Assembly (NCBI RefSeq): GCF_024171725.1
Contig: NZ_JAMTCG010000006.1
Span: forward strand, 1-64,000
Source of the DNA: Williamsia serinedens
GTDB lineage: Bacteria > Actinomycetota > Actinomycetes > Mycobacteriales > Mycobacteriaceae
Length of the DNA: 64,000 bases
Direction: 5' to 3'
Shown: piece by piece, positions 12,911-54,296 of the stretch
Numbering within the stretch: position 1 is the first letter of the stretch
Layout: the number at the start of each line of letters is the position of its first letter
Made by a program: the position numbers and the translations under genes
Notes under the pieces: model-generated
The model's database searches: none
What the model was told of the DNA's origin: nothing
Seen by the model: the letters and a program-made list of their open reading frames with translations, nothing else

Positions 12911-13022
12911 CCGCCTGTTGGGCAGTTGAAGCCGTTCGTTGGGCGGTAGGAGCACACCCGGCGCGACAACGTGCGTCCCGACTGCCCAACAGACGGTCCC
13001 AACCGCCCAACAGACGGCATGA
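12911..13022. repeat. 21-bp-period intergenic repeat array with inverted arms
   Basis: Two 21-bp units lie in one orientation (12911-12931 and 12932-12952, core GTTGGGC then A/G then G), and two 21-bp units lie in the opposite orientation (12981-13001 and 13002-13022, core CCCAACAGACGG), separated by 28 bp. The two halves could fold into a long cruciform. It sits between the convergent efflux and oligopeptidase genes. The same core and period recur at 21668-21824. It has no CRISPR features: units are contiguous and no spacers exist. Confidence 0.75.
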
Positions 13023-13059
13023 CACCCGGCTTGGGGCGGGGTGAGCGTCGAGGTGCCGG

Positions 13060-15165
13060 TCAGAGGGCCTTGGTCTGGCGGAGGACCCAGGCGTGCTCGA
13101 ACGCGACCTCTTCCCACTGCTTGTAGCGACCGCTCACACCGCCGTGGCCGGCGGTCATCTCGGTCTTCAGCAGGATCGGGGCGTCGGAGGTGGTGTTCGC
13201 CTGCAACCGCGCGACCCACTTCGCCGCCTCGGTGTACATGACGCGCGTGTCGTTGAGCGAGGTGAGCGCCAGGATCGACGGGTACGCCTTCGCCTCGACG
13301 TTCTCGTACGGCGAGTAACTCTTCATGTACGCGTACACCTCGGGGTCCTCGAGCGGATTGCCCCACTCGTCCCACTCGATGACGGTCAGCGGCAGCGACG
13401 GGTCGAGGATCGACGTCAGCGGGTCGACGAACGGCACGACGGCCAGGATCCCGCTGAACAACTCCGGCGCCATGTTCGCGACCGCACCGATCAACAGCCC
13501 GCCCGCGGAGCCGCCCTCCCCCACCAGCTGCGAGGGCGTGGTCGCGCCCGTGTCGACGAGATGCTGTGCGGCGTCGACGAAGTCGGTGAAGGTGTTCTTC
13601 TTGGTGAGCGTCTTGCCGTTCTCGTACCAGTGACGACCCATCTCGCCGCCACCGCGGATGTGGGCGACGACGAACACGACGCCCCGGTCCAGCAGCGACA
13701 ACCGCGCGATGGAGAACGCCGGGTCCATGCTCGCCTCGTACGAGCCATAGCCGTACAGCAGCGTCGGAGCAGGACGTTCGACGCCCCGCCTCGAGATCAC
13801 CGACAGCGGCACCTGCGTCCCGTCGCGGGCGGTCACCCATTCGCGCCGCTGCTCGTAGTCGGCGGGGTCGTACCCGCCGAGGACGGGCTGACGCCGCAAC
13901 AGGATCCGCTCGCCGGTGCGCAGGTCGAGGTCGAACACCTCCGACGGCTCGATGAAACTCGTGTACCCGATACGCAGTCGCGGCGCGGTCCACTCCGGGT
14001 TCGAGGCGAGGCCCGCGGACGAGATCTCCTGGTCGAACTCGATCTCGTCGAAGGCGATCTCGTCGTCGACGCCGACTCCGGCGAGGTCGGCGACGGCGAT
14101 CCGCGGCGTCGCCGCCCGCCGGTAGCTGAGCACCAGGCGGTCCGCGAACGCGTCGACGCCCTCGATCCGACGCTCCGTGTCGTGGGGGACCACCACCCGC
14201 GTCGCCGTCGGGTCGTCGACGGGTGCGGAGAGCACCTCGAAGTTCTCGGCGTTCTCGTTGTGGGTGATCAGGAACCGGTCCTCGCCCCCGATCACGGCGT
14301 GCTCGACGTCGTACTCGATGCCGTCACGACGCGGCCAGACGACCCGGAACTCGCCGGTCGGGTCGGACGCGTCGAGGACGTGCACCTCGGACGTGATCTT
14401 CGACCCGAGCGCGATCACCAGGTACCGATCGCTCCGTGTGGTCCCCATGCCGACCCAGAACCGCTCGTCGGGCTCGTGGAACACCCGCACGTCGTCGGTC
14501 CCGGCCCCGATGTCGTGGCGCCACACCGTGTCCGGGCGCCACGCGTCGTCGACGGTGAGATAGAAGACGTGCCGCCCGTCGGCCGACCACGTCGCCCCGG
14601 GAGCGGTGTTCTCGACGGTGTCGGAGAGCAGCTCGCCGGAGGTGAGGTCCTTGAACCGCAGCGTGTACCGCTCGTCGCCGACGACGTCGACGCCGTAGGC
14701 CAGCAGGGCGCCGTCGTCGCTGACCGAGAACGAGCCCAGCGAGTAGAAGTCGGTGCCCTCCGCCTCGACGTTGGAGTCGAGCAGGACGGTCTCGCCGTCG
14801 AGCGGGTCGTCCCCGACGGTCGGCGGATCCCAGTCGTCGTCGCCGCGGATCGGGCAGCGGCAGCTGATCCCGTACTGCTTGCCCTCGACGGTGCGCGAGT
14901 AGTACCAGAAGCGGCCCCGGCGCACCGGGACCGACATGTCGGTCTCCTTGGTGCGCGCCTTGATCTCGCCGACGATGGTCGACCGCAGGTCGGCGAGTTC
15001 GGCGGTGTCGGCCTCGGTCAGCGCGTTCTGCGCCTCGAGGTAGGCGATGACCTCGGGATCGTCCTTGTCGCGCAACCACTCGTACTCGTCGACGACCACG
15101 TCGCCGTGGTGTTCGCGGGTCGTCGGGACCGTCTTCGCGGTCGGCACCGCGGGTCGCTCGGTCAC
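13060..15165 (-). CDS. ptrB: oligopeptidase B-like S9 family serine peptidase
   Basis: A 701-residue prolyl-oligopeptidase-family protein: an N-terminal seven-bladed propeller (about 70-410) and a C-terminal alpha/beta hydrolase domain. The catalytic Ser is in [10 protein letters not shown], the Asp follows the [11 protein letters not shown] segment, and the His is in MTAGHGG close to the end. The YGYGSYE and [10 protein letters not shown] motifs are characteristic of oligopeptidase B, which cuts peptides after Arg/Lys in the cytoplasm. The GTG at 15165 has GGGAGG upstream and overlaps the purC stop (GTGA). In M. tuberculosis this gene is split in two (recalled); here it is one intact frame. 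Confidence 0.93.
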
Positions 15166-16055
15166 AGCGCACCTCCCGGCCACTGCGCGAACGACCGGCC
15201 CGAGATCGTCTCGTACGCCTCGACGTACCGGGCGCGCGTCCGCGCGACCACATCACCCGGCAGCGGTGGCGGTGGCACGGGACCTGTTCTGTCCCAACCC
15301 GACTCGGGTCCCGTCAACCAGTTGCGCACGATCTGCTTGTCGAAGCTCGGCTGCACGACACCCGGCGTGTGGATCCCCGCGTCCCAGTACCGCGACGAGT
15401 CCGGCGTGAGCACCTCGTCGGCGAGCACCAGCGACCCGTCCGGTGCGAGACCGAACTCGAACTTGGTGTCGGCGAGGATGATCCCGCGGCTCGCCGCGAG
15501 TTCCGCGCCGCGCATGTAGATGTCGAGGGTGGCGTCGCGGAGCGCGCGGGCGGTCGGCTCGCCCACCCGCTCGACGACACCGGCGAAGTCGATGTTCTCG
15601 TCGTGGTCGCCGATCGCGGCCTTGCTCGCCGGGGTGAAGATCGGCATGGGCAGGCGCGAGGCCTCCTGCAGGCCCGGCGGCAGCGAGATCCCACACACCG
15701 ATCCGGTCGCGCGGTAGTCGAGCAGACCTGACCCGGTGAGGTAGCCGCGGGCGACGCATTCCACCGGCAGCATCGGCAGTTTGCGCACCACCATCGACCG
15801 CCCGAGCTCGGCGGCCGGGATCCGCGGGTCGTCGGGTCCGCCGACGAGGTGGTTGGCGATGCCGAGCGTCTCGAACCAGAAGAACGACATCGCGGTCAGG
15901 ACGCGCCCCTTGTCGGGGATGAGGCTGTCGAGCACGTGGTCGTAGGCGGAGATGCGATCCGTCGACACCATGAGCAGCGTGTCGGCGTCGATCTCGTACA
16001 GCTCGCGGACCTTGCCCGACGCCACATGGCGATAGGACTCGAGGGTGGGACGCAT
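15162..16055 (-). CDS. purC: phosphoribosylaminoimidazole-succinocarboxamide synthase
   Basis: A 297-residue SAICAR synthetase, which couples CAIR and aspartate with ATP in purine synthesis. The N-terminal [11 protein letters not shown] and [10 protein letters not shown] motifs (phosphate binding), the [13 protein letters not shown] strand and the late [13 protein letters not shown] segment (substrate Asp/Ser contacts) are all present. ATG at 16055. The stop overlaps the oligopeptidase B start, so the two are coupled, the same order as purC-ptrB in mycobacteria (recalled). Confidence 0.97.
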
Positions 16056-16109
16056 GGCCCAAGGCTAGTGGTGCGCGGACCGCGACCACCGCGCCTACCC
16101 TCGTCACGC

Positions 16110-16409
16110 ATGACGACGCCCGAGGTGTCCCCACCCGCCGTGCGCATCCGCTACTGCACGCTGTGCAACTGGCTGCTGCGGGCGAACTGGATGTCGGCGG
16201 AGCTGCTGTCGACGTTCGGCACCGAGCTGGGGTCGCTCACCCTCGTGCCCGACACCGGCGGCGTCTTCACCGTCGAGGTCGACGGCAGCCCGGTGTGGGA
16301 CCGCTCCGTGGACGGCGGCTTCCCCGACGCCGCCGAGCTGAAGCGCCGCGTCCGCGACGCCGCGTTCCCCGACCGCGACCTCGGGCACGGAGAGACGCGC
16401 ACGTCCTGA
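16110..16409 (+). CDS. SelT/SelW/SelH-like (Rdx family) protein
   Basis: A 99-residue thioredoxin-like protein. The N-terminal strand VRIRYCTLCNW holds the CxxC redox motif at about residues 17-20, where eukaryotic selenoproteins have Cys-x-x-Sec; here both are Cys. A GGVFTVEVDG strand and a C-terminal helix complete the Rdx fold. The family's exact electron partner is unknown. ATG at 16110, divergent from purC with a 54-bp gap. Family membership is fairly sure from the motif and length. Confidence 0.82.
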   Translation: MTTPEVSPPAVRIRYCTLCNWLLRANWMSAELLSTFGTELGSLTLVPDTGGVFTVEVDGSPVWDRSVDGGFPDAAELKRRVRDAAFPDRDLGHGETRTS

Positions 16410-16479
16410 TCTGCGGGGAATGCGCGCCCGCACCGTCGTACGTTGCACCGGGGGTCCCCTGCCGACCCGAGGAGTCCCC

Positions 16480-17001
16480 GTGACCGACACCGACACCGCC
16501 CTGCACGACGTCCTCGTCGATGCCTTCACCCGCGCCGACGACGCCGTTGCCTCGCTCACCGACGGTGCTTCCGCCGCCGTCCTCACCCACCGCGTCGACG
16601 CCGACGCCAACACCATCGCCTGGCTGATCTGGCACTCCGCGCGCGTTCTGGACGACCACGTGACCGGCCTGACCGGCGGGGAGCAGCAGTGGCCACAGTG
16701 GCGTGACCGCTTCGACCTCCCGTTCGACGACTGGGCGACCGGCTACGGCCAGAGCAGCGACGAGGTGGCCGCCGTGCCCGGCGACGGCGACCTGCTCGCC
16801 GGCTACTTCCACGCCGTGCACCAGGCCGCGCTCGACTACATCCGCACCCTCACGCCCGACGAGGTCGAGCGCATCGTCGACGAGAACTGGGATCCGCCGG
16901 TGACCGCCGGCGTCCGGCTGGTCAGCGTCCTCAACGACATCACCCTGCACATCGGGCAGGCGCAGTTCGTCGCGGGGATCGCCGAGCGCGCGGGGATCTG
17001 A
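16480..17001 (+). CDS. DinB-like (DUF664) mycothiol-transferase-type protein
   Basis: A 173-residue four-helix-bundle protein of the DinB / DUF664 superfamily, which in actinobacteria contains mycothiol-dependent transferases and isomerases. Candidate metal-binding histidines are in LIWHSARVLDDHV and in DITLHIGQAQ near the C-terminus, the usual three-His spacing. GTG at 16480 is preceded by GAGGAG. It is 70 bp downstream of the SelW-like gene on the same strand and may share its transcript. The substrate is unknown. Confidence 0.78.
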   Translation: MTDTDTALHDVLVDAFTRADDAVASLTDGASAAVLTHRVDADANTIAWLIWHSARVLDDHVTGLTGGEQQWPQWRDRFDLPFDDWATGYGQSSDEVAAVPGDGDLLAGYFHAVHQAALDYIRTLTPDEVERIVDENWDPPVTAGVRLVSVLNDITLHIGQAQFVAGIAERAGI

Positions 17002-17039
17002 CGCACGTCGGCCGGGGCGGTTCGGATCCACGTCGACGA

Positions 17040-17201
17040 GACTCCGCGGCGAGCGGGCGAATCCGCGCCGAACTCGGCGCGGGTTCGTCCACTGAACGCG
17101 GGTTCGCGAGAACGGCGCGGGTTCGCGAGAACGGCGCAGGTTCCCCGGCCCACCCACGACTCCGCGGCGAGCGGGCGAATCCGCGCCGAACTCGGCGCGG
17201 G
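17040..17201. repeat. 19-bp-period intergenic repeat array bracketed by a 44-bp direct repeat
   Basis: The 44 bp at 17040-17083 recur exactly at 17158-17201. Each copy contains a hairpin (CGAATCCGCGCCGA facing TCGGCGCGG). Between them lie 19-bp units at 17078-17096, 17097-17115, 17116-17134 and 17135-17153; units two and three are identical (CGCGGGTTCGCGAGAACGG). It fills most of the roughly 300-bp gap between the convergent DinB-like and purB genes. The rest of the gap (17202-17306) shows nothing I recognise. The same unit recurs at 53.7 and 54.2 kb. Confidence 0.85.
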
Positions 17202-17306
17202 AAGGTGAGTAGGCCGCCGGTGCACATGCCGGGCACGGCGAGGCGTGGCAGAAGTGCGCGCATTGCCACCGATCACCGATCGTCGGAGACGACTCGCGAG
17301 CGTGAG

Positions 17307-18746
17307 CTACAGGATCGGCGCGGGGGTGTAGCGCGCGGCGTCGGGGTACTGGGCGGCGAGCCGCCCGACGGCGGCGACGACGTCGGCCACCTGCTGCTCG
17401 GCGGCTCCGATGAAGGCGTGCTTGTCCGCCAGCGCTGCGTCGAGGGCCGCACGGTCGAGCGGGAGGCGGTCGTCGGCGGCGAGGCGGTCGAGAAGGTCCG
17501 GTTCGCGGCCCTCCTCGCGCATCGCCAGCGCGACGGCCACGGCGTTCTCCTTGATCGCCTCGTGCGCGGTCTCGCGTCCGACGCCGGCGCGCACCGCGGC
17601 GATGAGCACCTTCGTGGTCGCGAGGAACGGCAGGTAGCGGTCCAGTTCGTTCGCGATCACCGCCGGGTAGGCACCGAACTCGGCGAGGACCGTCAGGAAC
17701 GTCTCCATCAGCCCATCGACGGCGAAGAACGCGTCGGGCAGGGCGACGCGGCGCACCACCGAGCAGAACACGTCGCCCTCGTTCCATTGCGCCCCAGCGA
17801 GCTCCGCGGTCATCGACGCGTATCCCCGCAGCACCACGGCCAATCCGTTCACCCGCTCGCAGCTGCGCGTGTTCATCTTGTGCGGCATGGCCGAACTGCC
17901 GACCTGACCCGGTTGGAAGCCCTCGGTGACCAGCTCGTGGCCGGCCATCAGCCGGATGGTGTGCGCCATCGACGACGGACCGGCGGCCACCTGCACCAGC
18001 GCGGACACCACGTCGTGGTCGAGCGATCGCGGGTACACCTGACCGACCGACGTCAGAGATCGCGAGAAGCCCAGGTGCGCAGCCACTCTCGACTCCAGCG
18101 ACGCCAGCTTCTCGGTGTCGCCGTCGAACAGGTCGAGCATGTCCTGCGACGTGCCCATCGGACCCTTGATGCCGCGCAGCGGATACCGGCCGATCAGTTC
18201 GCGCAGCCGGGTGAGCGCGATGAGCAGTTCGTCGACAGCGGACGCGAACCGCTTGCCGAGCGTCGTCGCCTGGGCGGCGACGTTGTGGCTGCGACCGGCC
18301 ATCACGATCGACGAGTACTGGGCGGCGCGGTCGGCGAGGCGGGCGGCCACCGCGACACCGTGGGCGTGCACATGCTCGAGCGAGCGCAGGATCTGCAGCT
18401 GCTCGACGTTCTCGGTGAGGTCGCGGCTCGTCATCCCCTTGTGGATGTGTTCGTGGCCGGCGAGCGCGTTGAACTCCTCGATGCGCGCCTTCACGTCGTG
18501 ACGGGTGACGCGCTCCCGCTCGGCGATGGAGGCGAGGTCGACGTCGTCGACGACGCGCTCGTAGTCCTCGATGACCCCGTCGGGGACGTCGACGCCGAGG
18601 TCACGCTGGGCGGTGAGCACCGCGATCCACAGCCGCCGCTCGAGGACGATCTTGTGCTCGGGCGACCACAGGGTCACCAGCTCGGCCGAGGCGTAGCGCC
18701 CGGCCAGGACATCGGTGATGCGCGGCTTGTCAGACACGCGGCTCAT
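17307..18746 (-). CDS. purB: adenylosuccinate lyase
   Basis: A 479-residue fumarase/aspartase-superfamily lyase acting twice in purine synthesis (SAICAR to AICAR, and adenylosuccinate to AMP). The signature loop GSSAMPHKMN is present with its catalytic Ser, as is the HIHKGMTSRDLTEN segment with the catalytic His region. The ATG at 18746 gives the expected N-terminus; an in-frame start 24 bp upstream has no support. It ends 105 bp from the 19-bp repeat array. Confidence 0.96.
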   Translation of the reverse strand: MSRVSDKPRITDVLAGRYASAELVTLWSPEHKIVLERRLWIAVLTAQRDLGVDVPDGVIEDYERVVDDVDLASIAERERVTRHDVKARIEEFNALAGHEHIHKGMTSRDLTENVEQLQILRSLEHVHAHGVAVAARLADRAAQYSSIVMAGRSHNVAAQATTLGKRFASAVDELLIALTRLRELIGRYPLRGIKGPMGTSQDMLDLFDGDTEKLASLESRVAAHLGFSRSLTSVGQVYPRSLDHDVVSALVQVAAGPSSMAHTIRLMAGHELVTEGFQPGQVGSSAMPHKMNTRSCERVNGLAVVLRGYASMTAELAGAQWNEGDVFCSVVRRVALPDAFFAVDGLMETFLTVLAEFGAYPAVIANELDRYLPFLATTKVLIAAVRAGVGRETAHEAIKENAVAVALAMREEGREPDLLDRLAADDRLPLDRAALDAALADKHAFIGAAEQQVADVVAAVGRLAAQYPDAARYTPAPIL

Positions 18747-18786
18747 TCTGCCCCGCCGCGGGCCGGGCACCCCAATCGCGACCGGG

Positions 18787-19377
18787 TCAGCGACCGCTGG
18801 GTGCGAGCGCGTCGACGACGTGGGTCAGCGCCTCGTAGGTCGCGGCGTGCACGTCGTCGACCGAGTCCGACAGGGCACGGACCACCGCACCCTCCTCGAC
18901 CGCCATCAGCTGGGCGATGGACGCGGTCGCCACCGTCCGGCCCGACTTCTCCAGCACCTCGTGGTGCAGCTCGCCGAGCAGCTTGCCCCGGTTGACCAAC
19001 AGCGGGCGTAGACGTGGGAACCGTTGTGCCAGAACGACGGTCTCGCAGCGGGTGGTGAGCAGCTCGCGGTCGTCGCCGACGAAGACGTCGGCGAGGGCCT
19101 CGGCCGTGGCCTCGCAGCCGCGCCGACGTCGGGTGAGATGCGAGGTGCGGTCGCGGATCGCGTCCATGTCGTCGTGACAGACGTGGGACACCGCCTCGAC
19201 GACGAGATCCTCGAGCGACTCGAAGTAGTACGTGGTCGAGGCGAGCGGCAACCCCGCGCGATCGGCGACGGCGCGGTGACGGACGGCGTCAAACCCGCCC
19301 TCCACCAGCAGATCTCCGGCCGCCGCGATGAGACGGGCACGACGTCGCAGACCCTTGGGAGTCGCTGCTGACGTCAT
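18787..19377 (-). CDS. TetR family transcriptional regulator
   Basis: A 196-residue TetR-type regulator. HTH at about 11-55: RRARLIAAAGDLLVEGGFDAVRH, then a recognition helix with LPLASTTYYFESLEDLV. The ligand domain has no recognisable specificity. Two ATGs (19386 and 19377) are possible; neither has a strong Shine-Dalgarno. It lies between the aminotransferase and purB on the same strand. In mycobacteria a TetR gene also lies between the esterase and purB (recalled), so this is probably a conserved neighbour rather than a purine regulator. Confidence 0.85.
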   Translation of the reverse strand: MTSAATPKGLRRRARLIAAAGDLLVEGGFDAVRHRAVADRAGLPLASTTYYFESLEDLVVEAVSHVCHDDMDAIRDRTSHLTRRRRGCEATAEALADVFVGDDRELLTTRCETVVLAQRFPRLRPLLVNRGKLLGELHHEVLEKSGRTVATASIAQLMAVEEGAVVRALSDSVDDVHAATYEALTHVVDALAPSGR

Positions 19378-19472
19378 GGGGGACATGCTGCCAAACCGCG
19401 GGTCACCGGCGACGCGTTTTCGCAGGTCTGATGACCTTCGGCGGCGTGTTGGCCCCGGCCACGCCGGAGCGG

Positions 19473-20663
19473 TCAGCCCCGCGTCAGCACCGGCGCGAGC
19501 AGTTCGAGTCCCCGGGCGATGTCGGAGCGGTCGCCAGCGAAGCTGAGACGGATGGTGCGCGAGCCACGCACGGTGTCGAAATCGACTCCCGGGGCGATCG
19601 CGACACCGGTGGATGCGAGCACCTGCCGGCACCAGGCGAGGCTGTCGTCGGTGACGTGGCCGACGTCGGCGTAGAGGTAGAACGCGCCGTCGGGAGGGGC
19701 GATCTCGGTGACCCCGAGGTCGGCGAGCCCGGCGATCAGCGCATCCCGGTTCGCGGTGTAGCGGGCCACGTGGGCGTCGCACTCGGCGAGCGACACGTCG
19801 TCGAACGCGGCCACCGCGGCGATCTGCGACAGCGTCGGCGGGCAGATGGTGAGGTTCGCGGTGAGGCGTTCGACGGCACGCCGGTACCGCTGCGGCACCA
19901 GCATCCACCCGAGCCGCCACCCGGTCATGCAGAAGTACTTCGACATCGACCCCATGACCACGGCCTCCCGCGAGGTGGACCATGCGCACGACGTCGCCGG
20001 CGCTCCCGGGTGCTCGATGCCGTGGTAGATCTCGTCGGAGATGAGCAGGGTGCCGCGGTCCTCGCACCACCGCGCCAGCGCGGCGAGGTCGTCGGGCGGG
20101 ATGATCGTGCCCGTCGGGTTGGCGGGGCTGGCGACGATGAGGCCCGCCGGCGGTTCGCCGAGCGCGTCGAGCATGTCGACGGTCAGCCGGTAGTCCGCCT
20201 CCGCCCCGCAGTCGAGTTCGACGACCTCGCATCCCAGCGCGCTCAGCGCGTTGCGGTAGGCGGGATATCCCGGGCGCAGCAGCACGACGCGATCGCCGGG
20301 CGAGAACGCGGCCAGGAAGATCAGGGTGAACGCGCCCGACGACCCCGTGGTGACGATGACGTCCGACGCGTTGACGTCGAGTCCGTACCGACGGCGATGG
20401 TGACCGGCGATCGCGCCGCGGATGGCGGCCGTGCCCGACGACTCGGTGTAGCCCAGCAGGTCGGCGTCGATCGCCTCCCGGACCGCGCGCCGCACCGGTT
20501 CCGGCGCCGGCGTCGACGGTTGTCCGGCCGCCAACGAGACCACCTCGAGGCCCGCGTCACGGCGTGCCGCACCGGCGGCGAGCACGTCCATGACGTGGAA
20601 CATCGCGATGTCGGAGCGGGCGGACGGCGCGGGCGCGAGCGGGCCGGGACGCGGGAAGGCCAT
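19473..20663 (-). CDS. PLP-dependent aminotransferase, class I/II
   Basis: A 396-residue fold-type I aminotransferase. The PLP-binding Lys is in SMSKYFCMTGWRLGW, the Asp is in the ISDEIYHGI strand, and the Asn is in SPANPTGT; the C-terminal Arg that holds the substrate carboxylate is in SRTIRLSFA. It resembles aspartate/branched-chain-type aminotransferases of the AspC/AlaA kind, but substrate specificity cannot be read. I chose the ATG at 20663; a GTG three codons earlier is equally possible, and neither shows a clear Shine-Dalgarno. It diverges from the esterase gene with a 98-bp gap. Confidence 0.9.
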   Translation of the reverse strand: MAFPRPGPLAPAPSARSDIAMFHVMDVLAAGAARRDAGLEVVSLAAGQPSTPAPEPVRRAVREAIDADLLGYTESSGTAAIRGAIAGHHRRRYGLDVNASDVIVTTGSSGAFTLIFLAAFSPGDRVVLLRPGYPAYRNALSALGCEVVELDCGAEADYRLTVDMLDALGEPPAGLIVASPANPTGTIIPPDDLAALARWCEDRGTLLISDEIYHGIEHPGAPATSCAWSTSREAVVMGSMSKYFCMTGWRLGWMLVPQRYRRAVERLTANLTICPPTLSQIAAVAAFDDVSLAECDAHVARYTANRDALIAGLADLGVTEIAPPDGAFYLYADVGHVTDDSLAWCRQVLASTGVAIAPGVDFDTVRGSRTIRLSFAGDRSDIARGLELLAPVLTRG

Positions 20664-20761
20664 GGGTCGCACTGTAGGCGAGAGCCGGTATCCTCTGGAC
20701 TCGTCACGAGCCGTTCGACGACGCCCCGCAGGACGTCGTCGGATCCTGCCGGAAGAGGGGT

Positions 20762-21664
20762 ATGCGCGCAGTCGACCGACGCACCGTCCTGGGTGCGGGC
20801 GCCGGGATCGGCGCCCTGCTCGCGCTCGGTGCGTGCAGCCGCGACGACGACGGGACCCCGCGCCGTCAGGCGCAGACGCGCACGCAGGACGAGGTGTCGC
20901 CGGAGTCCACGCCGACCACGACCTCGCGACCGGGTGACCCGGAGCTGATCACCGGCAGTTTCCGCTCGACGAAGATGCTGGGTCGCGAGACGCGCTGGAT
21001 CGTCGCCCGGCCACCGGGCGTCGTCGGGACGCTGCCGGTCGTCGTCGTGCTGCACGCGCTGAACACCGACGAGAAGACCGCGTTCATCTCCAGCCTGCAG
21101 ATGCACCGCTACCTGGCGCAGTCGGTCGCGGCCGGCACGGCGCCGTTCGCGCTGGCCGCCCCGGACACCGGTCGGAACTACTACCACCCGCGGCTCGACG
21201 GGACCGATGCCGCGGCGATGGTCGTCGACGAGTTCCTGCCCATGCTCGCGTCGAACCCCACCCTGGGGCTCTCGACCGAGCGGATCGGCCTGTACGGGTG
21301 GTCGATGGGCGGCTACGGGGCGCTGCGTCTCGGCGCGATCCTCGGCCCGCGTCGCGTGGCGGCGATCGCGGCGAGCTCGCCCGCGCTGTGGGGCGACCCG
21401 CGGACGTTCCCGCCGCGGGCGTTCGACAGTCCCGAGGACTACCGCGCCAACTCCCTGTTCGGCCAGCAGGGTGCGTTCGCGCAGATCCCGCTGCTCATCG
21501 ACATCGGCGCGAGCGACCAGTTCTACCTGTACACGCGGCAGTGGATGGCGGGACTGCACCCGCCCGCGGCGTTCTCGACCTCACCGGGCGGCCACAACAA
21601 CCGGTTCTGGCGCAGCGTCCTGCCCGACCAGATGGCCTTCCTCGGCCGCAACCTCGCCGCCTGA
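20762..21664 (+). CDS. exported lipoprotein esterase, alpha/beta hydrolase (esterase D / Ag85-like)
   Basis: A 300-residue predicted lipoprotein: Arg-rich start (VDRR), hydrophobic stretch, and lipobox LGAC with Cys25, then a Thr/Pro-rich linker. The mature part is an alpha/beta hydrolase with the nucleophile Ser in GWSMGGYG and a late His in GGHNNRFW; the layout resembles antigen-85-type or esterase-D-type proteins. A twin-Arg-like VDRRTVLG suggests Tat export. Likely role: a surface ester hydrolase or acyl transferase, like the exported esterase next to purD in mycobacteria (Rv0774c, recalled). Its stop is 4 bp before a 21-bp repeat array. Confidence 0.85.
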   Translation: MRAVDRRTVLGAGAGIGALLALGACSRDDDGTPRRQAQTRTQDEVSPESTPTTTSRPGDPELITGSFRSTKMLGRETRWIVARPPGVVGTLPVVVVLHALNTDEKTAFISSLQMHRYLAQSVAAGTAPFALAAPDTGRNYYHPRLDGTDAAAMVVDEFLPMLASNPTLGLSTERIGLYGWSMGGYGALRLGAILGPRRVAAIAASSPALWGDPRTFPPRAFDSPEDYRANSLFGQQGAFAQIPLLIDIGASDQFYLYTRQWMAGLHPPAAFSTSPGGHNNRFWRSVLPDQMAFLGRNLAA

Positions 21665-21667
21665 CCT

Positions 21668-21824
21668 CGTTCCCACTGCCCAACGGATCGTTCCTGCTGC
21701 CCAACAGATCGTTCCTGCTGCCCAACAGACGGCGGTTCCCGACGTCGAGTGGGCGGTAACGGACGTCGAGTGGGCGGTAACGGACGTCGACTGGGCGGTT
21801 ACGGACGTCGACTGGGCGGTTCCC
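21668..21824. repeat. 21-bp-period intergenic repeat array between esterase and purD
   Basis: Three units with core CTGCCCAAC (21668-21688, 21689-21709, 21710-21730), then a 10-bp joint, then four opposite-oriented units with core TGGGCGGT (21741-21761, 21762-21782, 21783-21803, 21804-21824). The first two of the last block are identical, and the third and fourth differ by a few bases. The GACGTC that opens each unit is repeated once more and ends in the purD stop codon (21829-21831). Same family as 12911-13022. Confidence 0.88.
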
Positions 21825-21828
21825 GACG

Positions 21829-23085
21829 TCAGGGGATGGTGATACGGCCTTCGAGGGCGGCCAGACCGATGTCGGTGCGGTGGTGCGAGCCGGCGAGACG
21901 GATCCCGGCGACGCGGTCGTAGGCCTGCGCGCGGGCCGCGGCGAGGTCGTCGCCGACGCCGACGACCGCCAGCACCCGACCACCCGACGACACGACCGAC
22001 CCGTCCGCGTCGACCTTCGTCCCCGCGTGCAGCACACCGTCGACGTCGGCGCCGGTGATCGTGTCACCCGTCCGCGGGGTGCCGGGGTAGTTCTCCGCGG
22101 CGACGACGACGGTGACCGCGGATCCCTCGCGCCAGCGCAGGGGGCCGAGCTCGGCGAGACGGCCGGTGGCCGTGGCGTCCAGCGCCTCACCGAGCGGTGA
22201 CTCGAGCAGCGCCAGCACGGCCTGCGTCTCGGGATCGCCGAAGCGACAGTTGAACTCGACGACCGCGGGCCCGTCGGCCCCGATCGCCAGGCCGGCGTAC
22301 AGCAGACCGCTGAACGGGCAACCGCGAGAACTCATCTCGCGCGCGACGGGCTCGACGACGTCGTCGACGATCCGCTGGACCATGGCCTCGGGCAGCCACG
22401 GCAGCGGCGTGTAGGCGCCCATGCCTCCGGTGTTCGGGCCCTGGTCCCCGTCGCCGACGCGCTTGTGGTCCTGCGCGGGCAGGAGCGGGACGACGTCGGT
22501 GCCGTCGACGAGGCAGAACAGCGACACCTCGGGGCCGTCGAGGAACGATTCCAGCAGTACCGGGTGACCAGCTTCGAGCAGGTCGGCGGCGTGCGCGCGG
22601 GCGGCGGCTCGATCGGCCGAGACGACGACCCCCTTGCCGGCGGCGAGTCCGTCGTCCTTGACGACCCACGTCGGGCCGAAGCGGTCGAGCGCCGCGTCGA
22701 GATGTGCTGGGTTGTCGACGATCTCGCTGTGCGCGGTCCGTACGCCCGCAGCGGCCATCACGTCCTTGGCGAACGCCTTCGAGCCCTCGATCCGCGCGGC
22801 GGCTGCGCTCGGACCGAACGTCGCGATCCCCGCCTCCCGCAACGCGTCGGCGACGCCGAGCACCAGGGGGACCTCCGGCCCGACGACCACGAGGTCGGCG
22901 CCGATCTCGCGGGCGAGGGCGACCACGGCGTCCGACGAGGCGACGTCGACGGGATGGTTGGTGGCGATCGAGCGGGTACCGGCATTGCCGGGCGCGACGT
23001 GCAGGTCGTCGACGCCGGGGTCGGCCGTCAGGCCCAGGAGCAGGGCGTGTTCGCGTCCACCGGATCCGATCACCAGAACTCGCAC
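21829..23085 (-). CDS. purD: phosphoribosylamine--glycine ligase
   Basis: A 418-residue GAR synthetase (ATP-grasp), the second step of purine synthesis. The N-terminal [14 protein letters not shown], the ATP-grasp segment [16 protein letters not shown], the Asp/Asn metal ligands in [14 protein letters not shown], and the [10 protein letters not shown] loop are all present. GTG start at 23085 matches the family N-terminus. The stop codon lies at the edge of the 21-bp repeat array. It is the most upstream of the window's five purine genes on the minus strand, but unrelated genes separate them. Confidence 0.97.
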
Positions 23086-23116
23086 GGGGGTGGACTCTAC
23101 CGTCGCGTCCCGGGGC

Positions 23117-24364
23117 CTACCCCGACCGCAGGCGCAGGAGGGCCTCGGCGCGGTGCCGGGTCCCGACCGCCTCGTCGACGGCGACGATCCCGACCGGCGC
23201 GACGGCCGCGACGACCAGCGCCCACACCACCGACATCCCGGCGGCCGCGGCCGCGACGGCCACGCCGAGGATCACCAGCCCGGCCAGTGTCAGCGCGGCG
23301 TTGAGGACGTCGAACTCGACCAGGTACGAGTACGTGAGGGTGAGCATCACGAAGTAGACGGCCAGGGGCACGGCCACCGCCGCCACGGCCACCTCGGCCC
23401 CGATGTCCGCGTGGTGTTCGAGGTACAGGGCCGCGACGTGCAGTCCGGCACCGACGGCCGCGATCGCCATGAACACCAGGATGTGCGAGTACCCCCAGGC
23501 GAAGCACTTGGACCGGTCGGCCTCCAGCGCGTCCCCGGCGGGCACGACAAAGTAGATCCACCACAGCGAGAACGTGATCGCCACCCCCGCGAGGCCCAGC
23601 ACAGCCGTCTCGACGGTCCAGCCCTGCTCCGCGATCACCGACTGCAGCGCGACCGCCGTCCCGACGATCCCCTCCCCCAGGGTGATGATCGCGAGCAGTC
23701 CGTACCGCTCGGCGATGTGGTGCGGGTGCCACGGGGTCGGCATGCGCCGTTCGGCCACGAACGGCCCTGCCAGCTCGACGCCCACCAGCACGACGGTCGC
23801 GATCGCGGTCGGGAGCAACGACATCTCGAGGACGATGACGACCACCCATCCGACCTGGGCGACGAGGATCGCGGCGGCGTACGTCAGGCAGGTGCGGCGG
23901 TACTGCTCACTCTGCGACGCGGCCCGCAGCCACTGCACCAGCATCGCCACACGCATCACGACGTACCCGAGCACCAGGACGCGGTTGTCGAGGTGGTCCC
24001 CGGAGTCCAGCGACTCGAACACCGGCGCGATGCCCAGCGACAGGACGAGCACCCCGCCCATCTGCACCATCGTCACCACGCGGAACACCCAGTCGTCGGT
24101 GTCGAAGGCGGAGGCGAACCAGGAGAAGTTGATCCAGGCCCAGATCGTCGCGAACGAGGAGAAGAGGAATCCTGCGACCGCTGTGCGGTAGTGCCCCTCG
24201 GCGAGGTACTCCGCCACCTGCACGCCGGCGACGGAGAACGCCACGACGAACGTCAGGTCGAAGAACAGTTCCAGGTCCGACGCCGTCCGACCGTCCTCGT
24301 GGTGATCGCGGCCGGTCATGCGACGGATCCGGTGCGCCACCGAGGGCACGGTTCCAGCGGTCAT
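23117..24364 (-). CDS. low temperature requirement protein A (LtrA) family membrane protein
   Basis: A 415-residue polytopic membrane protein with about 12 hydrophobic segments. The start of the conserved region, [16 protein letters not shown], is the LtrA signature, and the later [20 protein letters not shown] stretch is also characteristic. LtrA was first linked to growth in the cold in Listeria; its molecular function is unknown. GGGAGG precedes the ATG at 24364; a second ATG 15 codons in is possible. A GC hairpin follows in the upstream region (24400-24414). Confidence 0.88.
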
Positions 24365-24399
24365 GGGTCCTCCCGGTCAAAGACGTCGCGTCGACGATC

Positions 24400-24414
24400 G
24401 GGGGCCGAGCCCCC
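24400..24414. other. short GC hairpin in upstream region of ltrA-like gene
   Basis: GGGGGC-CGA-GCCCCC is a perfect 6-bp stem, 35 bp upstream of the LtrA start, in the 267-bp gap 24365-24631. It might be a leader structure or the end of transcripts from the left. Nothing else in this gap is recognisable; a short open frame through it has no family features and no Shine-Dalgarno. Confidence 0.3.
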
Positions 24415-24631
24415 GGGTGACCGTATAGCGGACGACCGCGCGGCGCGGATCAGACCGCGGCGGAGGGAGCCTCGGGGTGGCACGTCGACGCGGCGGCGCA
24501 CAGCGCTGCCGTGTCGAGGCGGAACGACCGCCGCCACCGCCACACGCGCGACCAGCGGGACCAGGACATGCCGACCACCCTGGCGCGGCCGGACGGGTGG
24601 CACCAGGGTTGGCGTCAGCGTGATCGCAGCA

Positions 24632-25120
24632 TCAGGCGACGACGCGTGCGACGAAGGCCGCGATGTTCTCCCGGACCCGGGCGATCTTGCTGTCGACGTC
24701 GAGGTCGTCGCGGTACTGCTTGCCCAGCGACGGTGTCCGAGTCCCCCGCGCGTAGGCCGGGCAGGCGAGGTCGGAGCAGATGTAGGCGCCGACCGAGTCG
24801 CCCTTGCGGCCCGCGGCCCCGGCCTTCGCGGCCGTCATGAGCGCGACACCGCCCGACGGGTGGGTGGTCTGACAGATGGTGCACATCTGGGCGCGTCGCG
24901 AGGAGCCGGATGCGTGCCGCAGAGCGACGCCTGTCACGCCGTCGTCGCCGGGAACCACGACGTAGGAGCGCCCCGCGAAGGTGGCGTCGGACCAGCCGAG
25001 GAAGTCGAGCGCGTCCCAGTCGAGGGAGTCGAGATCCGACGGGACCGACATGCGCTTGGCGTCGCCCTTGGAACAGTTGACGAACGACGACCGGATCTCG
25101 GCCTCGGACAGCGGGAGCAT
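24632..25120 (-). CDS. FBP-domain (FusB-like zinc finger, EF-G-binding) protein
   Basis: A 162-residue protein with the FBP / treble-clef architecture. A four-Cys zinc site is visible: Cys80 and Cys83 in MCTICQ, Cys115 and Cys120 in YICSDLACPAY. The N-terminal part (SFVNCSKGDAKRM) also fits. In staphylococcal FusB/FusC this fold binds EF-G and releases it from fusidic-acid-stalled ribosomes; actinobacterial members are untested and may act in ribosome recycling. ATG at 25120, divergent from the StyA-like gene with a 197-bp gap that contains both promoters. Confidence 0.82.
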   Translation of the reverse strand: MLPLSEAEIRSSFVNCSKGDAKRMSVPSDLDSLDWDALDFLGWSDATFAGRSYVVVPGDDGVTGVALRHASGSSRRAQMCTICQTTHPSGGVALMTAAKAGAAGRKGDSVGAYICSDLACPAYARGTRTPSLGKQYRDDLDVDSKIARVRENIAAFVARVVA

Positions 25121-25317
25121 GGTCTTTCCTCACACGACGGGACACCGTCGTCCGACGGTGCGCGGACGACGCTATCGGCGCGGCCCTGAGCACCACAAAG
25201 GGATTTTCGTCGCCGGCGGGCCGCCTTGCGTTCATCGGACGCCAAACCCTTCTGCCCGGCCCCGCACCGCGACACCGTGGGCGGCGTCAGTTCACTTTCT
25301 TGGGCAGGAGAACACAC

Positions 25318-26673
25318 ATGGCATCCACCACCCGATCCGCCGCGGTGATCGGCGCCGGGATCGCCGGGACCACAGCGGCTCTCGGCCTCGTCGACGCCGG
25401 GTTCGACGTCACGCTGTACAGCGACCGCGACCGGAGGTCGCTGCGTGACGACGTCCCGCCGACCGGCACGGCCGTCCTCTTCGGCAAGTCGAAGGACTAC
25501 GACGCCTCCATCATCGAGGACCTGTACTCCGTCGGGAACACCAGCGGGATCAGTGCGCGGCTGTACGCCGGGGACGGCGCCGACCGCGCCCAGGTGTTGG
25601 AGTTCAACCCCGACTTCCACTACGACACGCAGGCCGTCGACGTCCGTCTGCGCTCCGACGACCGGCTCGGCCGGTTCCTGGAGCGCGGCGGCAGGTTCGA
25701 GGTGCGGTCCGTCGACCCGACGGTGCTCGACGAGATCGCCGGGTCGCACGACCTGACGCTCGTCGCGACCGGCAAGGGTGGTCTCGCGCAGCTCTTCGGC
25801 GTCGACGAGTCCCGAACCGTGTACGACCGGCCGCAGCGCCACCTGCTCCAGATCGTCCTGAAGGGACTCGACCAGGGCGAGGACGTGTTCGCCTACCGCA
25901 ACCGCGAGGGTGGCAAGCACGACCTCTACAACCTCGACGCCGACAACGGCGAGGCGTGGCTCGGTCCGTACCTCCACAAGGACGAGGGCGTCACCTGGGC
26001 GTTCCTCGGTTTCGCGAAGCCCGAGGGCCAGTGGGTCGACCGATTCGCCGGCGCGACCGACCGCGAGTCGGCGCGACAGATCGTGCTCGATCTCTACCGC
26101 GACTACTTCCCGCACGACCTCCCCGAGGTCGAGAAGCTCGAGATCGTCGAGTCCGACGAGAAGTCATGGGCGAAGGGCGCGGTCACGCCGGTCGTCCGCA
26201 ATGCGACGGCCACCACCGCGAGCGGTCACGTCGTCGCGGCGATCGGTGACACGGCCATCGCCGTCGATCCCGTCGCGGGCCAGGGCGCGCAGAACGCACT
26301 GGTGCAGGTGTCCGAGCTGGTGAGAGCGGCTGCCGCGCACGACGGCCCGTTCACCGCGGACTGGCTGTCGGAGCGGTTCGAGGAGTTCTGGGAGCTGCGC
26401 GGACACGCGGCCGTCGAGGTCACGCGCCTGTTCCTCGGACACCCCGACTACGCGGAGCACCTCGAGCTCGCGTTCCCCGCGGCCGCGGTCAACACCGACA
26501 TCGCGTCGGCGCTGTTCGGGCTGCTGTCGGACCCGAACCCGTTGCTGACCTTGAAGACCCGCGACGACATCCTCGGCTTCATCTCCGCCGTCGCCGGCGA
26601 GCCCGCCGAGGACGTCCTGGCGAAGTTCAGTCCCGCAGGCGACTTCACGCGCGCGGAGCCGGTCCCGGCCTGA
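25318..26673 (+). CDS. styrene/indole monooxygenase-like (StyA-type) FAD flavoprotein
   Basis: A 451-residue group E-type flavoprotein monooxygenase. The N-terminal Rossmann motif GAGIAG is at about residues 14-19, followed by the LYSDRD strand; the late GDTAIAVDPVAGQGAQNAL segment is the FAD-ribityl motif of this class. StyA epoxidises styrene or indole using FADH2 from a separate reductase, StyB. No StyB-type reductase is nearby and no fusion is present, so it is an orphan oxygenase. AGGAGAA precedes the ATG at 25318. A strong hairpin terminator follows. Confidence 0.82.
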   Translation: MASTTRSAAVIGAGIAGTTAALGLVDAGFDVTLYSDRDRRSLRDDVPPTGTAVLFGKSKDYDASIIEDLYSVGNTSGISARLYAGDGADRAQVLEFNPDFHYDTQAVDVRLRSDDRLGRFLERGGRFEVRSVDPTVLDEIAGSHDLTLVATGKGGLAQLFGVDESRTVYDRPQRHLLQIVLKGLDQGEDVFAYRNREGGKHDLYNLDADNGEAWLGPYLHKDEGVTWAFLGFAKPEGQWVDRFAGATDRESARQIVLDLYRDYFPHDLPEVEKLEIVESDEKSWAKGAVTPVVRNATATTASGHVVAAIGDTAIAVDPVAGQGAQNALVQVSELVRAAAAHDGPFTADWLSERFEEFWELRGHAAVEVTRLFLGHPDYAEHLELAFPAAAVNTDIASALFGLLSDPNPLLTLKTRDDILGFISAVAGEPAEDVLAKFSPAGDFTRAEPVPA

Positions 26674-26724: not shown

Positions 26725-26781
26725 CGTGTGCACGGTCGATGGGAAGTACTGCACGTGCGACGGGATCTGGTGCACGCTCGG

Positions 26782-26809
26782 GGCAGTAGGCAGTAGGCAG
26801 TAGGCAGTG
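26782..26809. repeat. four tandem copies of a 7-bp unit
   Basis: GGCAGTA is repeated three times exactly and a fourth time as GGCAGTG, ending 6 bp before the stop codon of the convergent luciferase-like gene (26816). Copy number could vary by replication slippage. It lies in the 3' untranslated region, so it would not change a protein. Confidence 0.8.
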
Positions 26810-26815
26810 AGGCGG

Positions 26816-31501: not shown

Positions 31502-33647
31502 GGTCGTACAGGGTGACCGACCCGACCGTGCGCGGTGTGTAGTTCGCCTCGACCCACGACCGGATGTCGGACGCGGTGCCGCGGGCGTTCATGCCGCCGC
31601 CGAAACCACCACCGCCACCGATGAACCAGTGGATCTTGCCCTCTCGCACGTACTGCTGGAACTGCGCGAGTGTGGGCGACGGGTCGCTGCCGTTGAAGCC
31701 GCCGATCGGCATGACCGGGTCCTGCGTCGCCAGCTGATAGCCGGACGCCGAGTTCGACCCCACGGCCGCCGCGACCCAGGTGTAGCGGTCGGCGTCGCGT
31801 TCGAGCAGCGCGGTGAGTTCGGCCGACGGTCGCGATCCCTCCAGGAGACCGCCGCCGGGACCACCCATGCCACCACCCATCGCCTCGGCGAACGCCGCGA
31901 ACGGGTTGGCCGCGTTCTGGCCGCCCGGACCCGTCTGGCCGCTCAGCCGGCCGGGCTGACCGGGTTGCCCGAACTGGCCCGGCTGACCGAACTGCCCTTG
32001 CTGCCCCCCGAACTGCCCTTGCTGCCCGCCGAACTGGCCGGGCTGACCGAACTGCCCGCGCTGGCCGAACCGGCCCGGACCACCGTGCCCACCGGGGCCG
32101 AAGCCACCGGCGACCCGGGGTCCGGCGCTGATGATCGACCCGCTCACCGACGTCGACACGGTGTCGATCGCATAGGCGGCGGGGCCGGCGAGCCCGAGGA
32201 TCACGGCGAGCGCAGCACCGATGGCGGCGACCCGCGGAATCCGTGTGAGCAGTACGGCGATCGCGGCGACGATGGCGCCGACGAGGACCACCCATCGCAG
32301 CCACGGCACGAAGTCCGCGGACCGGTCGAGCAGGACGTAGGCCATGACCCCCGTCGCGACGACCGACGCGGCCAGCACGATCCTGGCCCAGACGCGTCGT
32401 CGCTCCTGCCAACACATCCATCCGGCGGCGCCGACGACGCCGGCGACCGCCGGTGCCAGCGCCACGGTGTAGTACGCGTGGAAGATGCCCGACATGAAGC
32501 TGAAGGTCAGGTAGGTCACGACCAGCCACAGGAGCATCACGACGAGCAGTGCGCGACGGAGGTCGGTGCGGGCGGCGCGGCCGCAGATGACCAGGGCCGC
32601 GACACCGAGGATGATCGCGGCGGGGATCAACCAGGCGATCTGGCCGCCCTGTTCGGGCTGGAACATCCGCCAGAAGCCGGTCTCACCCCACATGCCGCCA
32701 CCCCGACCGCCTCCAAGACCTCCGGCGGGGAAGCCCGCGGCGCGGGCGAACTCGCTGAACGCGGCCCGGTTGCCGCCTCCGCCCGGCAGCGTGCTCCCGG
32801 TCTCGTTGCCGGTGAGGCGCCCGAATCCGTTGTAGCCGAACGTCAACTCGAGGATCGAGTTGTGCTGCGACCCGCCGATGTACGGGCGCGAGTCCTTCGG
32901 CCACAGCGTGACGGCGAGAACCCACCAGCCGGCAGCCACGACGAGCGCCAGCCCGGCGGCGAGCAGATGGCCGATGCGCTTGACCCAGGTGTGCTGCCCG
33001 AACGCGAGGTAGGTGAGGGCGAGCGGCGGGATGACGAGGAACACCTGCAACTGCTTGGTGAGGAACCCGAACCCGACGAACACGCCGGTCAGCACCATCC
33101 ACCGGATGCGGCCGTCCTCGATACCCCGCATCGTCGCCCACACCGCGGCCAGCATCAGGAGTACGAGCAACGCGTCGGGGTTGTCGAACCGGAACATCAA
33201 CGCCGCCACGGGCGTCAGGGCGAGCGCGAGCCCGGCGAGCAGGCCGGCCTGCCAGCCCGCGTACCGGCGGACGATGACGTACAGCAGGGCGACGGACGCC
33301 ACGCCCATCAGCGCCTGCGGCACCAGGACCGACCAGGAGTTCAGACCGAAGATGCGGACCGCGATGCCCGGGATCCACAGGGACATCGGGGGTTTGTCGA
33401 CGGTGATCGAGTTCGCGGCGTCGGACGAGCCGAAGAACCACGCCTTCCACGAGACCGAGCCGGCCTGGATCGCGGCCGCGTAGAACGAGTTGCCCCAGCC
33501 GTTCGCGGACAGGTTCCACAGGTACAGGATCGCCGTACCCGTGAGCAGGGCACCGAGGCCCCACCGGTCCGGTCGGGCGAGGCGGCGCCCCGCAGCCGGG
33601 GTCGGCTGCGGGGCGTCGATGCGGGTGGTGTCGAGGGTGTCGGTCAC
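31485..33647 (-). CDS. ArnT/PMT-like membrane glycosyltransferase (GT-C) with Gly/Gln-rich exoloop
   Basis: A 720-residue polyprenyl-phosphate-dependent glycosyltransferase of the GT-C type. About 12 membrane segments occupy the first 480 residues; the first outer loop (GSVSWKAWFFGSSD, then DKPPMSLW) contains the Asp-Lys-Pro-Pro motif of ArnT/PMT-like enzymes. A FGQ/GQPGQ-rich repeat stretch (about 524-570) and a globular C-terminal domain (about 605-720) lie outside the membrane. GTG at 33647 overlaps the upstream GT2-GtrA stop (GTGA). Presumably it moves a lipid-linked sugar made by that protein onto an envelope acceptor. Confidence 0.88.
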   Translation of the reverse strand: MTDTLDTTRIDAPQPTPAAGRRLARPDRWGLGALLTGTAILYLWNLSANGWGNSFYAAAIQAGSVSWKAWFFGSSDAANSITVDKPPMSLWIPGIAVRIFGLNSWSVLVPQALMGVASVALLYVIVRRYAGWQAGLLAGLALALTPVAALMFRFDNPDALLVLLMLAAVWATMRGIEDGRIRWMVLTGVFVGFGFLTKQLQVFLVIPPLALTYLAFGQHTWVKRIGHLLAAGLALVVAAGWWVLAVTLWPKDSRPYIGGSQHNSILELTFGYNGFGRLTGNETGSTLPGGGGNRAAFSEFARAAGFPAGGLGGGRGGGMWGETGFWRMFQPEQGGQIAWLIPAAIILGVAALVICGRAARTDLRRALLVVMLLWLVVTYLTFSFMSGIFHAYYTVALAPAVAGVVGAAGWMCWQERRRVWARIVLAASVVATGVMAYVLLDRSADFVPWLRWVVLVGAIVAAIAVLLTRIPRVAAIGAALAVILGLAGPAAYAIDTVSTSVSGSIISAGPRVAGGFGPGGHGGPGRFGQRGQFGQPGQFGGQQGQFGGQQGQFGQPGQFGQPGQPGRLSGQTGPGGQNAANPFAAFAEAMGGGMGGPGGGLLEGSRPSAELTALLERDADRYTWVAAAVGSNSASGYQLATQDPVMPIGGFNGSDPSPTLAQFQQYVREGKIHWFIGGGGGFGGGMNARGTASDIRSWVEANYTPRTVGSVTLYDLTDPK
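31950..32078 (-). repeat. degenerate coding minisatellite (FGQ / GQPGQ repeats)
   Basis: The DNA repeats the unit CCGAACTGCCC with variants and encodes repeated Phe-Gly-Gln and Gly-Gln-Pro-Gly-Gln blocks in the exoloop of the ArnT-like protein. Unit lengths are multiples of three, so the frame is kept when copy number changes. Confidence 0.7.
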
Positions 33648-53673: not shown

Positions 53674-53760
53674 ACCCGCGGCCAGTTCGCGTTCCCGCGT
53701 CGTCCTCGTGAACCCGCGCCGTGCGTGAAGCGGGAACGCCGAGTCGGCGCGGGAACGGGG
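53672..53760. repeat. 19-bp-period intergenic repeat array after otsB
   Basis: Contiguous 19-bp units at 53672-53690, 53691-53709, 53710-53728, 53729-53747, then a fifth, incomplete copy to 53760. The first three carry the core in the minus orientation (GAACCCGCG / GTTCCCGCG), the last two in the plus orientation (GCGGGAACG). The TGA of the preceding gene is made by the first unit. Same family as 17040-17201 and 54201-54296. Confidence 0.8.
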
Positions 53761-53804
53761 CCGATCCGACGGACCCGGACCGACGCCCCCTGTACGTTCG
53801 ATCG

Positions 53805-54184
53805 GTGACGACCCCCGAGCCGCCTGATCTCCACGACTCCGACTGGCGGATGGACTTCGAACTCAACCGCTACATGTTCGAGGCCTACTGCCTGACGATC
53901 GTGACCGACTTGTCCATCGACGAGTTCTTGGCCCTCGTCCCATCCGCGAGGGTCGTCGACGAATGCGACTACGAGACCCTCGAGGACCGAGGGATGGACA
54001 TCTTCAGCGAAATCGGTGGCGGAGCGGGCCTCCTCCAGGTCGGATCCTCGGTGGTGATGTTCGAGCCGAACGGCTACCGCGGCGTTACGACGGATCTGAT
54101 GATCGCGGTGTCGATCGGCCGCACGGTGGTGAGCGACCTAGGGAGTCGACGTACCTCAGCGTCGACATCCCGATTCCGGCCTAG
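53805..54184 (+). pseudogene. small DUF6461-like gene, apparently frameshifted
   Basis: From GTG 53805 the frame reads a soluble protein: DSDWRMDFELNRYMFEAYCLTIVTDLSIDEFLALVP, then SSVVMFEPNGYRG, resembling small actinobacterial DUF6461-type proteins. After IGRTVVS the frame continues into basic low-complexity residues and through the next repeat array to 54290. The third frame instead gives STYLSVDIPIPA and a stop at 54184, a sensible beta-strand end. I therefore infer a frameshift near 54130-54150 and a decayed or truncated gene. It is flanked on both sides by 19-bp repeat arrays. Confidence 0.5.
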
Positions 54185-54200
54185 GTCCGCGCCCCGTCAG

Positions 54201-54296
54201 CGAATCCGCGCCGAGCATCGCGCGGATTCGCGAGCACGCCGCGGGAACGCACAACCGCCGCGGATTCACGAGATCGGCGCGGGTTCGTGAGATCGG
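54201..54296. repeat. 19-bp-period intergenic repeat array with leading hairpin
   Basis: A perfect 11-bp hairpin (CGAATCCGCGC, 8-nt loop, GCGCGGATTCG; 54201-54230) leads into 19-bp units at 54221-54239, 54240-54258, 54259-54277 and 54278-54296; a fifth partial unit, CGCGGATCA, supplies the stop codon of the convergent transglutaminase gene (54303-54305). Consensus CGCGGRTTCGCGAGATCGG. Confidence 0.85.

Follow-up and report, generated by a model that had tools for sequence, protein, structure and literature searches.

Tandem repeat arrays at convergent gene junctions of Williamsia serinedens and their association with a family of nuclease-like genes

We analysed a window of 64,000 nucleotides from Williamsia serinedens (contig NZ_JAMTCG010000006.1, positions 1 to 64,000), in which arrays of short repeats lie between convergent genes, together with a family of nuclease-like genes found to be associated with such arrays. 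Their pairing suggests an undescribed repeat-plus-enzyme system spreading through actinobacterial genomes. Tandem Repeats Finder (TRF) assigns a period of 21 bp to the arrays at 12975-13017, 21667-21729 and 21731-21830, and of 19 bp to those at 17097-17143 and 54212-54303. On inspection, unit copies are present in both orientations within the window arrays. According to codon-model gene calls, these five arrays fall in four convergent gaps: 12854-13059 (bordered by genes for a major facilitator superfamily (MFS) transporter and an oligopeptidase B-like protein), 17002-17306 (mycothiol transferase and purB), 21665-21828 (esterase and purD) and 53674-54302 (trehalase and a transglutaminase-like protein). 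Coordinates are listed in Table 1. An earlier note on this DNA had described arrays of contiguous 19-bp or 21-bp units in mixed orientation at gene 3' ends, mostly between convergent genes, and TRF, sequence and gene calls agree with it. Its count of four arrays out of five between convergent genes is reproduced once an open reading frame (ORF) with a DUF6461 domain is counted as a gene; otherwise all five are convergent. The shared plan it proposed (3' location, fixed period, mixed orientation and differing cores) is correct and holds for additional families, both here and in other genomes.

Table 1. Repeat arrays and adjacent features of the window
Feature	Positions	Strand	Remarks
21-bp array, family A1	12911..13017	.	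+ units at 12917 and 12938; - units at 12980 and 13001
Oligopeptidase B-like gene	13060..15165	-	Right edge of first gap; profile score under the model's cut-off
19-bp array, family E	17040..17200	.	Both unit orientations; also found in G005
21-bp array, three A1 units	21665..21729	-	TRF and sequence inspection
21-bp array, about five A2 units	21731..21828	+	TRF and sequence inspection
purD	21829..23073	-	3' end abuts array
Short family-B-like stretch	26729..26785	.	By eye; below length for array test; not in G006
19-bp family E units	53674..53719	-	Directly past trehalase stop codon
ORF with DUF6461 domain	53721..54290	+	Pfam E-value 3.4e-8, residues 38-139 (about 53832-54137)
19-bp array, family E, chiefly + units	54196..54302	+	TRF and sequence inspection

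When positions 11381-26673 were traced into congeneric genomes, the gap between the MFS transporter and oligopeptidase B genes of G005 and G006 was found to contain a gene with related arrays on both sides. The same gap holds arrays without the gene in our window; in G005 and G006 the gene, coding for a putative nuclease, lies in opposite orientations. An equivalent MFS gap with flanking repeats occurs in G023, a member of another genus, where the nuclease was recognised by eye only, from its C-terminus.

The N-terminal part of the partner protein matches AbiEi profiles of PADLOC (best E-value 1.2e-14), and its C-terminus resembles the MTES_1575 and DUF559 nuclease families (below the Pfam cut-off in the first three proteins). 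Among 20 diverse partner proteins, searched at an E-value of 0.01, MTES_1575 was detected in 14, DUF559 in 11, AbiEi_1 in 5, AbiEi_4 in 4 and Mg_chelatase_C in 1; at the same threshold these 20 proteins gave no hit to transposase families. Since the partner proteins are without known transposase domain, interpretation as a single insertion sequence was dropped. MTES_1575 is described as a Vsr-fold restriction endonuclease in the accessible part of PMC3710099. Profile search against solved structures (PDB) retrieved an endonuclease-like protein (3hrl, 2.7e-5) and a mobile intron protein (3r3p, 0.005). By homology, the N-terminal part is predicted to be a DNA-binding winged helix. The ratio of nonsynonymous to synonymous substitution rates lies between 0.06 and 0.27 in 11 nuclease pairs, and the nuclease is under purifying selection. 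Profile search found its gene in 33 of 37 genomes, our own included. When 118 genomes were sampled from across the class, 101 had it at an E-value of 1e-8; W. serinedens itself gave 11 hits.

Nuclease genes are associated with repeats, which typically flank them in inverted orientation. Within the genus, 43 nuclease loci from eight genomes (orthologues counted) were compared with 703 control genes. Arrays of 18-26-bp units are situated on both sides of 20 nuclease loci and of no control gene, in a test that let arrays overlap the extended ORF start at nuclease loci, not at control genes; 26 of the 43 loci have an array on at least one side. Eighteen of the 20 array pairs score best when inverted; the 16 pairs whose units reach a similarity of 0.6 or more are all among them. 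In the class-wide set, inverted repeats common to both flanks were detected at 72 of 90 distinct loci, as compared to 2 of 126 control genes, with 60 shuffles per nuclease locus and 30 per control gene. The proportion is 36/41 in the genus and 36/49 outside it. The 90 loci were obtained from 108 by removal of duplicates and of loci lacking either neighbour or a recognised ORF; those taken from the class search are its best-scoring ones, not a random choice. Neighbouring genes are convergent at 57 of the 90 (27/41 in the genus, 30/49 outside); for the control genes of this genome the figure is 153 of 703. In W. serinedens itself, family E is found on both sides of the nuclease designated C8, A1 flanks the C7 nuclease and family B the C10 nuclease; at the five loci examined among the 11 hits, flank units differ from one locus to another.

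Further, we determined the distribution of arrays in the genome, using 40 stretches of 20 kb taken at even steps together with the window, which cover 864 kb of the 4.64-Mb genome. Genes were positioned with a codon-model caller that we trained on W. serinedens and that is less dependable in distant genomes. Among gaps of at least 30 bp, arrays with units of 18-26 bp occur in 16 of the 60 convergent ones; the tandem class has 9 such gaps among 249, and the divergent class 1 among 121. Convergent gaps make up 21% of gap bases (enrichment p 7e-6). Additional families follow the same plan, for example family B with 21-22-bp units GCACGNTCGGC and a 20-bp family GTGGAGCG. For family A, 22 distinct sites, merged from the best 30 of 56 matches, comprise 14 convergent and 5 tandem gaps, 1 divergent gap, 1 called coding sequence and 1 edge.

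Most of these gene-less arrays resemble flanks of nuclease genes. Of the array gaps in the 864 kb, 15 of the 16 convergent ones match a flank from the genus, as do 4 of the 9 tandem ones; the single divergent one does not. Among 150 array-free gaps sampled out of 205, 3 gave a match. Dinucleotide-shuffled gaps of at least 30 bp yielded 6 array calls over five rounds, none of them convergent. Since nearly all convergent array gaps match a recurring repeat family and shuffled gaps give no convergent calls, arrays exceed chance. For the 19 matching array gaps, the best flank belongs to A2 in 6 cases, to B in 6, to A1 in 3, to E in 2, and to the 20-bp family and a 22-bp family in 1 each; flanks of the A2 and 22-bp types are those of congeners and do not stem from W. 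serinedens. The first array (12911..13017) has the flanks of the resident C7 nuclease as its top match (score 59, null 35) and may be read as a gene-less derivative of a nuclease element. The purB array is 82% identical to DNA beside the C8 nuclease (C8:63710-63818; E-value 1.5e-23; score 167, null 42). The two arrays that together fill the esterase/purD gap score 120 (null 33), and the trehalase gap as a whole scores 56 (null 38).

Dispersal follows the resident flank in other genomes as well. It was predicted that CAGTTGGGCACNTAA, the unit flanking the MFS-gap nuclease of G001, G003, G004 and G007, would be dispersed in these genomes alone, and this held: 77, 96, 35 and 99 matches were found there, respectively, and none in G000, G002, G005 and G006 (0-1 for the reversed pattern). 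In G003, 5 of the 96 matches are at the nuclease locus itself. Pairs of A units 21 bp apart number 68 in W. serinedens, 32 in G006, 38 in G005 and 31 in G002, where the backwards control never exceeds 1; the corresponding numbers for G001, G004, G007 and G003 are 14, 9, 4 and 0 versus 9, 2, 6 and 3 in controls. By Blast, A-like arrays occupy at least 16, 15 and 11 places in G001, G004 and G007, and none in G003. Match counts are lower bounds where part of the candidates was scored, as in some genomes. The 111-bp flank of a nuclease belonging to another bacterial family was matched at least 40, 57, 33 and 3 times, respectively, when four members of its genus were searched, and never in four outside genomes. 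Among twenty of its places, some representing the same site, ten lie in convergent gaps, five in tandem ones and one in a divergent gap, and the remaining four are called as coding.

The AbiEi-like N-terminus would also suit a defence or addiction protein, with repeats serving as operators or self-markers that steer the nuclease off the chromosome. AbiEi antitoxins of type IV toxin-antitoxin systems are reported to bind inverted repeats in the accessible part of PMC7319586. The partner protein differs from them by its C-terminal nuclease domain, its repeat flanks and the lack of an evident operon partner here: neighbours, not all of which were scanned for a toxin, are mostly convergent flanking genes. 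Operators, moreover, need no tens of distant copies, and we regard this explanation as improbable.

Arrays come and go at orthologous sites. The purD gap is 164 bp long in our window and 4-18 bp in six congeners (the gap was not found in the seventh, G002). The purB gap carries family E here and in G005 and is reduced to 1 bp in G006. The trehalase gap, with family E and the DUF6461 ORF in the window, is 98 bp long in G005 and 100 bp in G006; the former contains a short family E-like stretch and the latter, by eye, a different family, the 20-bp one. One tandem gap has a family-B-like array here only (335 bp, versus 69 and 68). Such turnover bears on the possibility that arrays are a platform with a two-turn footprint, on which a nucleoid protein or regulator (perhaps the AbiEi-nuclease protein itself) organises the chromosome. 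The fixed period is close to two turns of DNA, and the idea was already put forward for constant-size 20-21-nt repeats in the accessible text of PMC8161180. Gain and loss argue against a fixed structural role, as do several unrelated units within one genome, and it is unlikely that a platform is what the arrays primarily represent.

The same data concern a role as bidirectional terminators or insulators against converging polymerases, the nuclease link being incidental. Preference for convergent gaps agrees with this role, and RNA of four array stretches folds better than shuffled sequences (z-scores -6.8, -3.9, -3.7 and -2.4). On the other hand, no T-run of four or more is present on either strand of the four array gaps, and at Rfam gathering thresholds the window contains one tRNA alone, the arrays matching no known RNA family. 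Arrays are not conserved in convergent gaps, orthologous gaps do without them, and among 21 convergent gaps that could be compared across three species, 11 are at most 25 bp long in each of them. Ordinary hairpins, separate from arrays, are conserved (by eye) in the 26674 and 181394 gaps. As the units also match nuclease flanks, termination is a very unlikely explanation. The functions that the earlier note thought possible, nucleoid-protein platform or transcript insulation, are unsupported as the primary role because orthologous gaps lack arrays, hairpins are conserved separately and arrays are tied to nuclease-like genes.

We therefore consider it probable that the arrays form one part of a repeat-enzyme system, namely its scattered copies without a gene, and that the AbiEi-like/Vsr-like nuclease gene is the second part. 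In the mechanism that we infer, the N-terminal part would bind the repeat unit of about two turns, and the nuclease would cut at arrays or target junctions. Host repair might then copy or insert array DNA at the new site, and slippage or recombination may expand and contract arrays. Insertions would persist chiefly between stop codons, where neither promoter nor operon is broken; survival of harmless insertions would account for the convergent location and make targeting unnecessary. In a wider form, which we favour on balance, such pairs would exist throughout the actinobacterial class: a selected nuclease at a fixed site would cause its repeats to spread to convergent junctions and to turn over, as a convergent counterpart of REP/RAYT (repetitive extragenic palindromes and their associated tyrosine transposases), and would be the source of at least the actinobacterial constant-size 20-21-nt repeats. 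To our knowledge, the AbiEi-winged-helix/Vsr-fold enzyme class is not known to move DNA in such a way.

Several observations weigh against this interpretation. Seventeen of the 43 genus loci have no tandem array, and 18 of the 90 class-wide loci fail the inverted-repeat test, including L092, L130 and L099, though inverted motifs are visible there by eye. Fifty-one of the 90 also pass the test in direct orientation because many flanks contain both orientations. Protein clade correlates with repeat unit (Mantel r 0.52), but the correlation depends on same-site orthologues; for 292 pairs from different sites, mean unit similarity stays at 0.32-0.40 over the whole range of protein similarity up to 0.69, a slight trend at most. 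It represents joint vertical descent, not independent co-evolution, and is not taken as independent proof, since a site-aware check ties it to same-site orthologues. Controls for flank matching were mostly non-convergent, and all three matches fell among the 11 convergent ones. A2 is the joint commonest match (6/19), yet the A2-type nuclease known in G005 and G006 does not occur in the MFS gap of this genome, of whose 11 nuclease hits five were examined. Likewise, A-like arrays occur in G001, G004 and G007 without an A2-type nuclease among the loci examined. The four genomes in which CAGTTGGGCACNTAA disperses may form one clade, so that the test amounts to one contrast. No target duplication was seen by eye at pairs of array and empty site, the gaps having diverged. 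The structure model of the Gordonia homologue (L099) is poor, with a mean predicted local distance difference test (pLDDT) score of 47. Finally, other genes also lie between arrays, namely the DUF6461 ORF of the window, an amine oxidase-like gene in G000 and G006 and a CARDB/DUF11 gene in G007, as would be expected if arrays dispersed passively via recombination, slippage or horizontal transfer and the nuclease gene were a passenger of array-rich junctions; recurrence of one gene family with flanking repeats across the class, while none of the 703 called control genes is bracketed by arrays, leaves this with little probability.

The proposed repeat-enzyme system resembles REP/RAYT in that extragenic repeats are dispersed, inverted pairs occur, and the enzyme gene lies between copies of its repeat. 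The last feature was found at 20/43 and 72/90 nuclease loci, not at all of them; many gene-less extragenic copies in the same genome are a property of the array families. RAYTs are Y1 HUH transposases. The partner is in contrast a Vsr-like nuclease with AbiEi-like N-terminus, tandem arrays of 19-22-bp units prevail in this genus, and hosts are Actinobacteria. RAYTs are described in the accessible part of PMC3116915 as single copy and apparently not self-mobilising; this genome has several nuclease hits, and the flank units of those examined differ. Because the pattern of a stable, selected enzyme gene between repeats that also occur without it and turn over is the one described for REP/RAYT, and the enzyme is no Y1 HUH transposase, we propose that the system works like REP/RAYT without being one. 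REP-like elements, which the earlier note had set against its own proposal, were thus nearer the mark, yet the partner enzyme differs from the REP transposase. As regards DNA transposons, the inverted flanks seen at 72 of 90 loci accompany proteins without known transposase domain. The weak C-terminal match to 3r3p suggests likeness to Vsr-like mobile-intron endonucleases; the difference is that we deal with a free-standing intergenic gene, at the same site across species, with dispersed gene-less repeats.

Constant-size tandem repeats of 20-21 nt are reported by Subirana and Messeguer (PMC8161180) as unexplained in many bacteria including Actinobacteria, and a nucleoid protein is suggested. 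As far as the accessible text tells, they share with our arrays equal unit length, variable sequence and several families per genome; they differ in that the 20-21-nt class has no named partner gene. The words "convergent", "nuclease" and "intergenic" are absent from its main text. Among the open-licence papers listed by our searches, we recognised none that describes a nuclease gene lying between copies of its own dispersed array. At least for Actinobacteria, the nuclease-like gene family is a concrete candidate partner of these unexplained repeats. Should the link prove causal, an enzyme that spreads repeats and is outside known transposases would be present in many genomes, and repeat families could be assigned to enzymes from sequence alone.

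Some observations concern nuclease flanks elsewhere. A nuclease homologue of Gordonia alkaliphila (L099:5243-6628) is situated downstream of purD, the position of an array in our window, and adjoins large hairpin-like repeats. In distant genera (L311, L313, L317, L320 and L324), several nuclease flanks contain TGATCA motifs and some are long inverted pairs, not short tandem arrays, as seen by eye. Arrays that bracket the amine oxidase-like gene of G000 and its counterpart in G006 (L197:4619-5816 and L199:2335-3427) consist of A1-like units in one case and A2-like units in the other. A 23-bp array GTCGACAGCCCGCTCCGCTGACG of about 5-6 copies, located in a convergent gap (L077:2515-2728, G000:C4), matches no nuclease flank tested.

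Within the window, the DUF6461 ORF is absent from codon-model gene calls. It is flanked by a 19-bp family E array on each side, and the C-terminal end listed for it extends into the right-hand one; as the equivalent gap measures about 100 bp in two congeners, the ORF is possibly cargo acquired by the arrays. Judged by PurD, Williamsia herbipolensis is the closest named relative found (83% identity). Repeats at 31969-32078 were set aside because they are inside a called gene. The short family-B-like stretch comes after a conserved hairpin. At 26782-26813, a convergent gap also contains about four copies of the 7-bp repeat GGCAGTA, the period of which is unrelated to the arrays.

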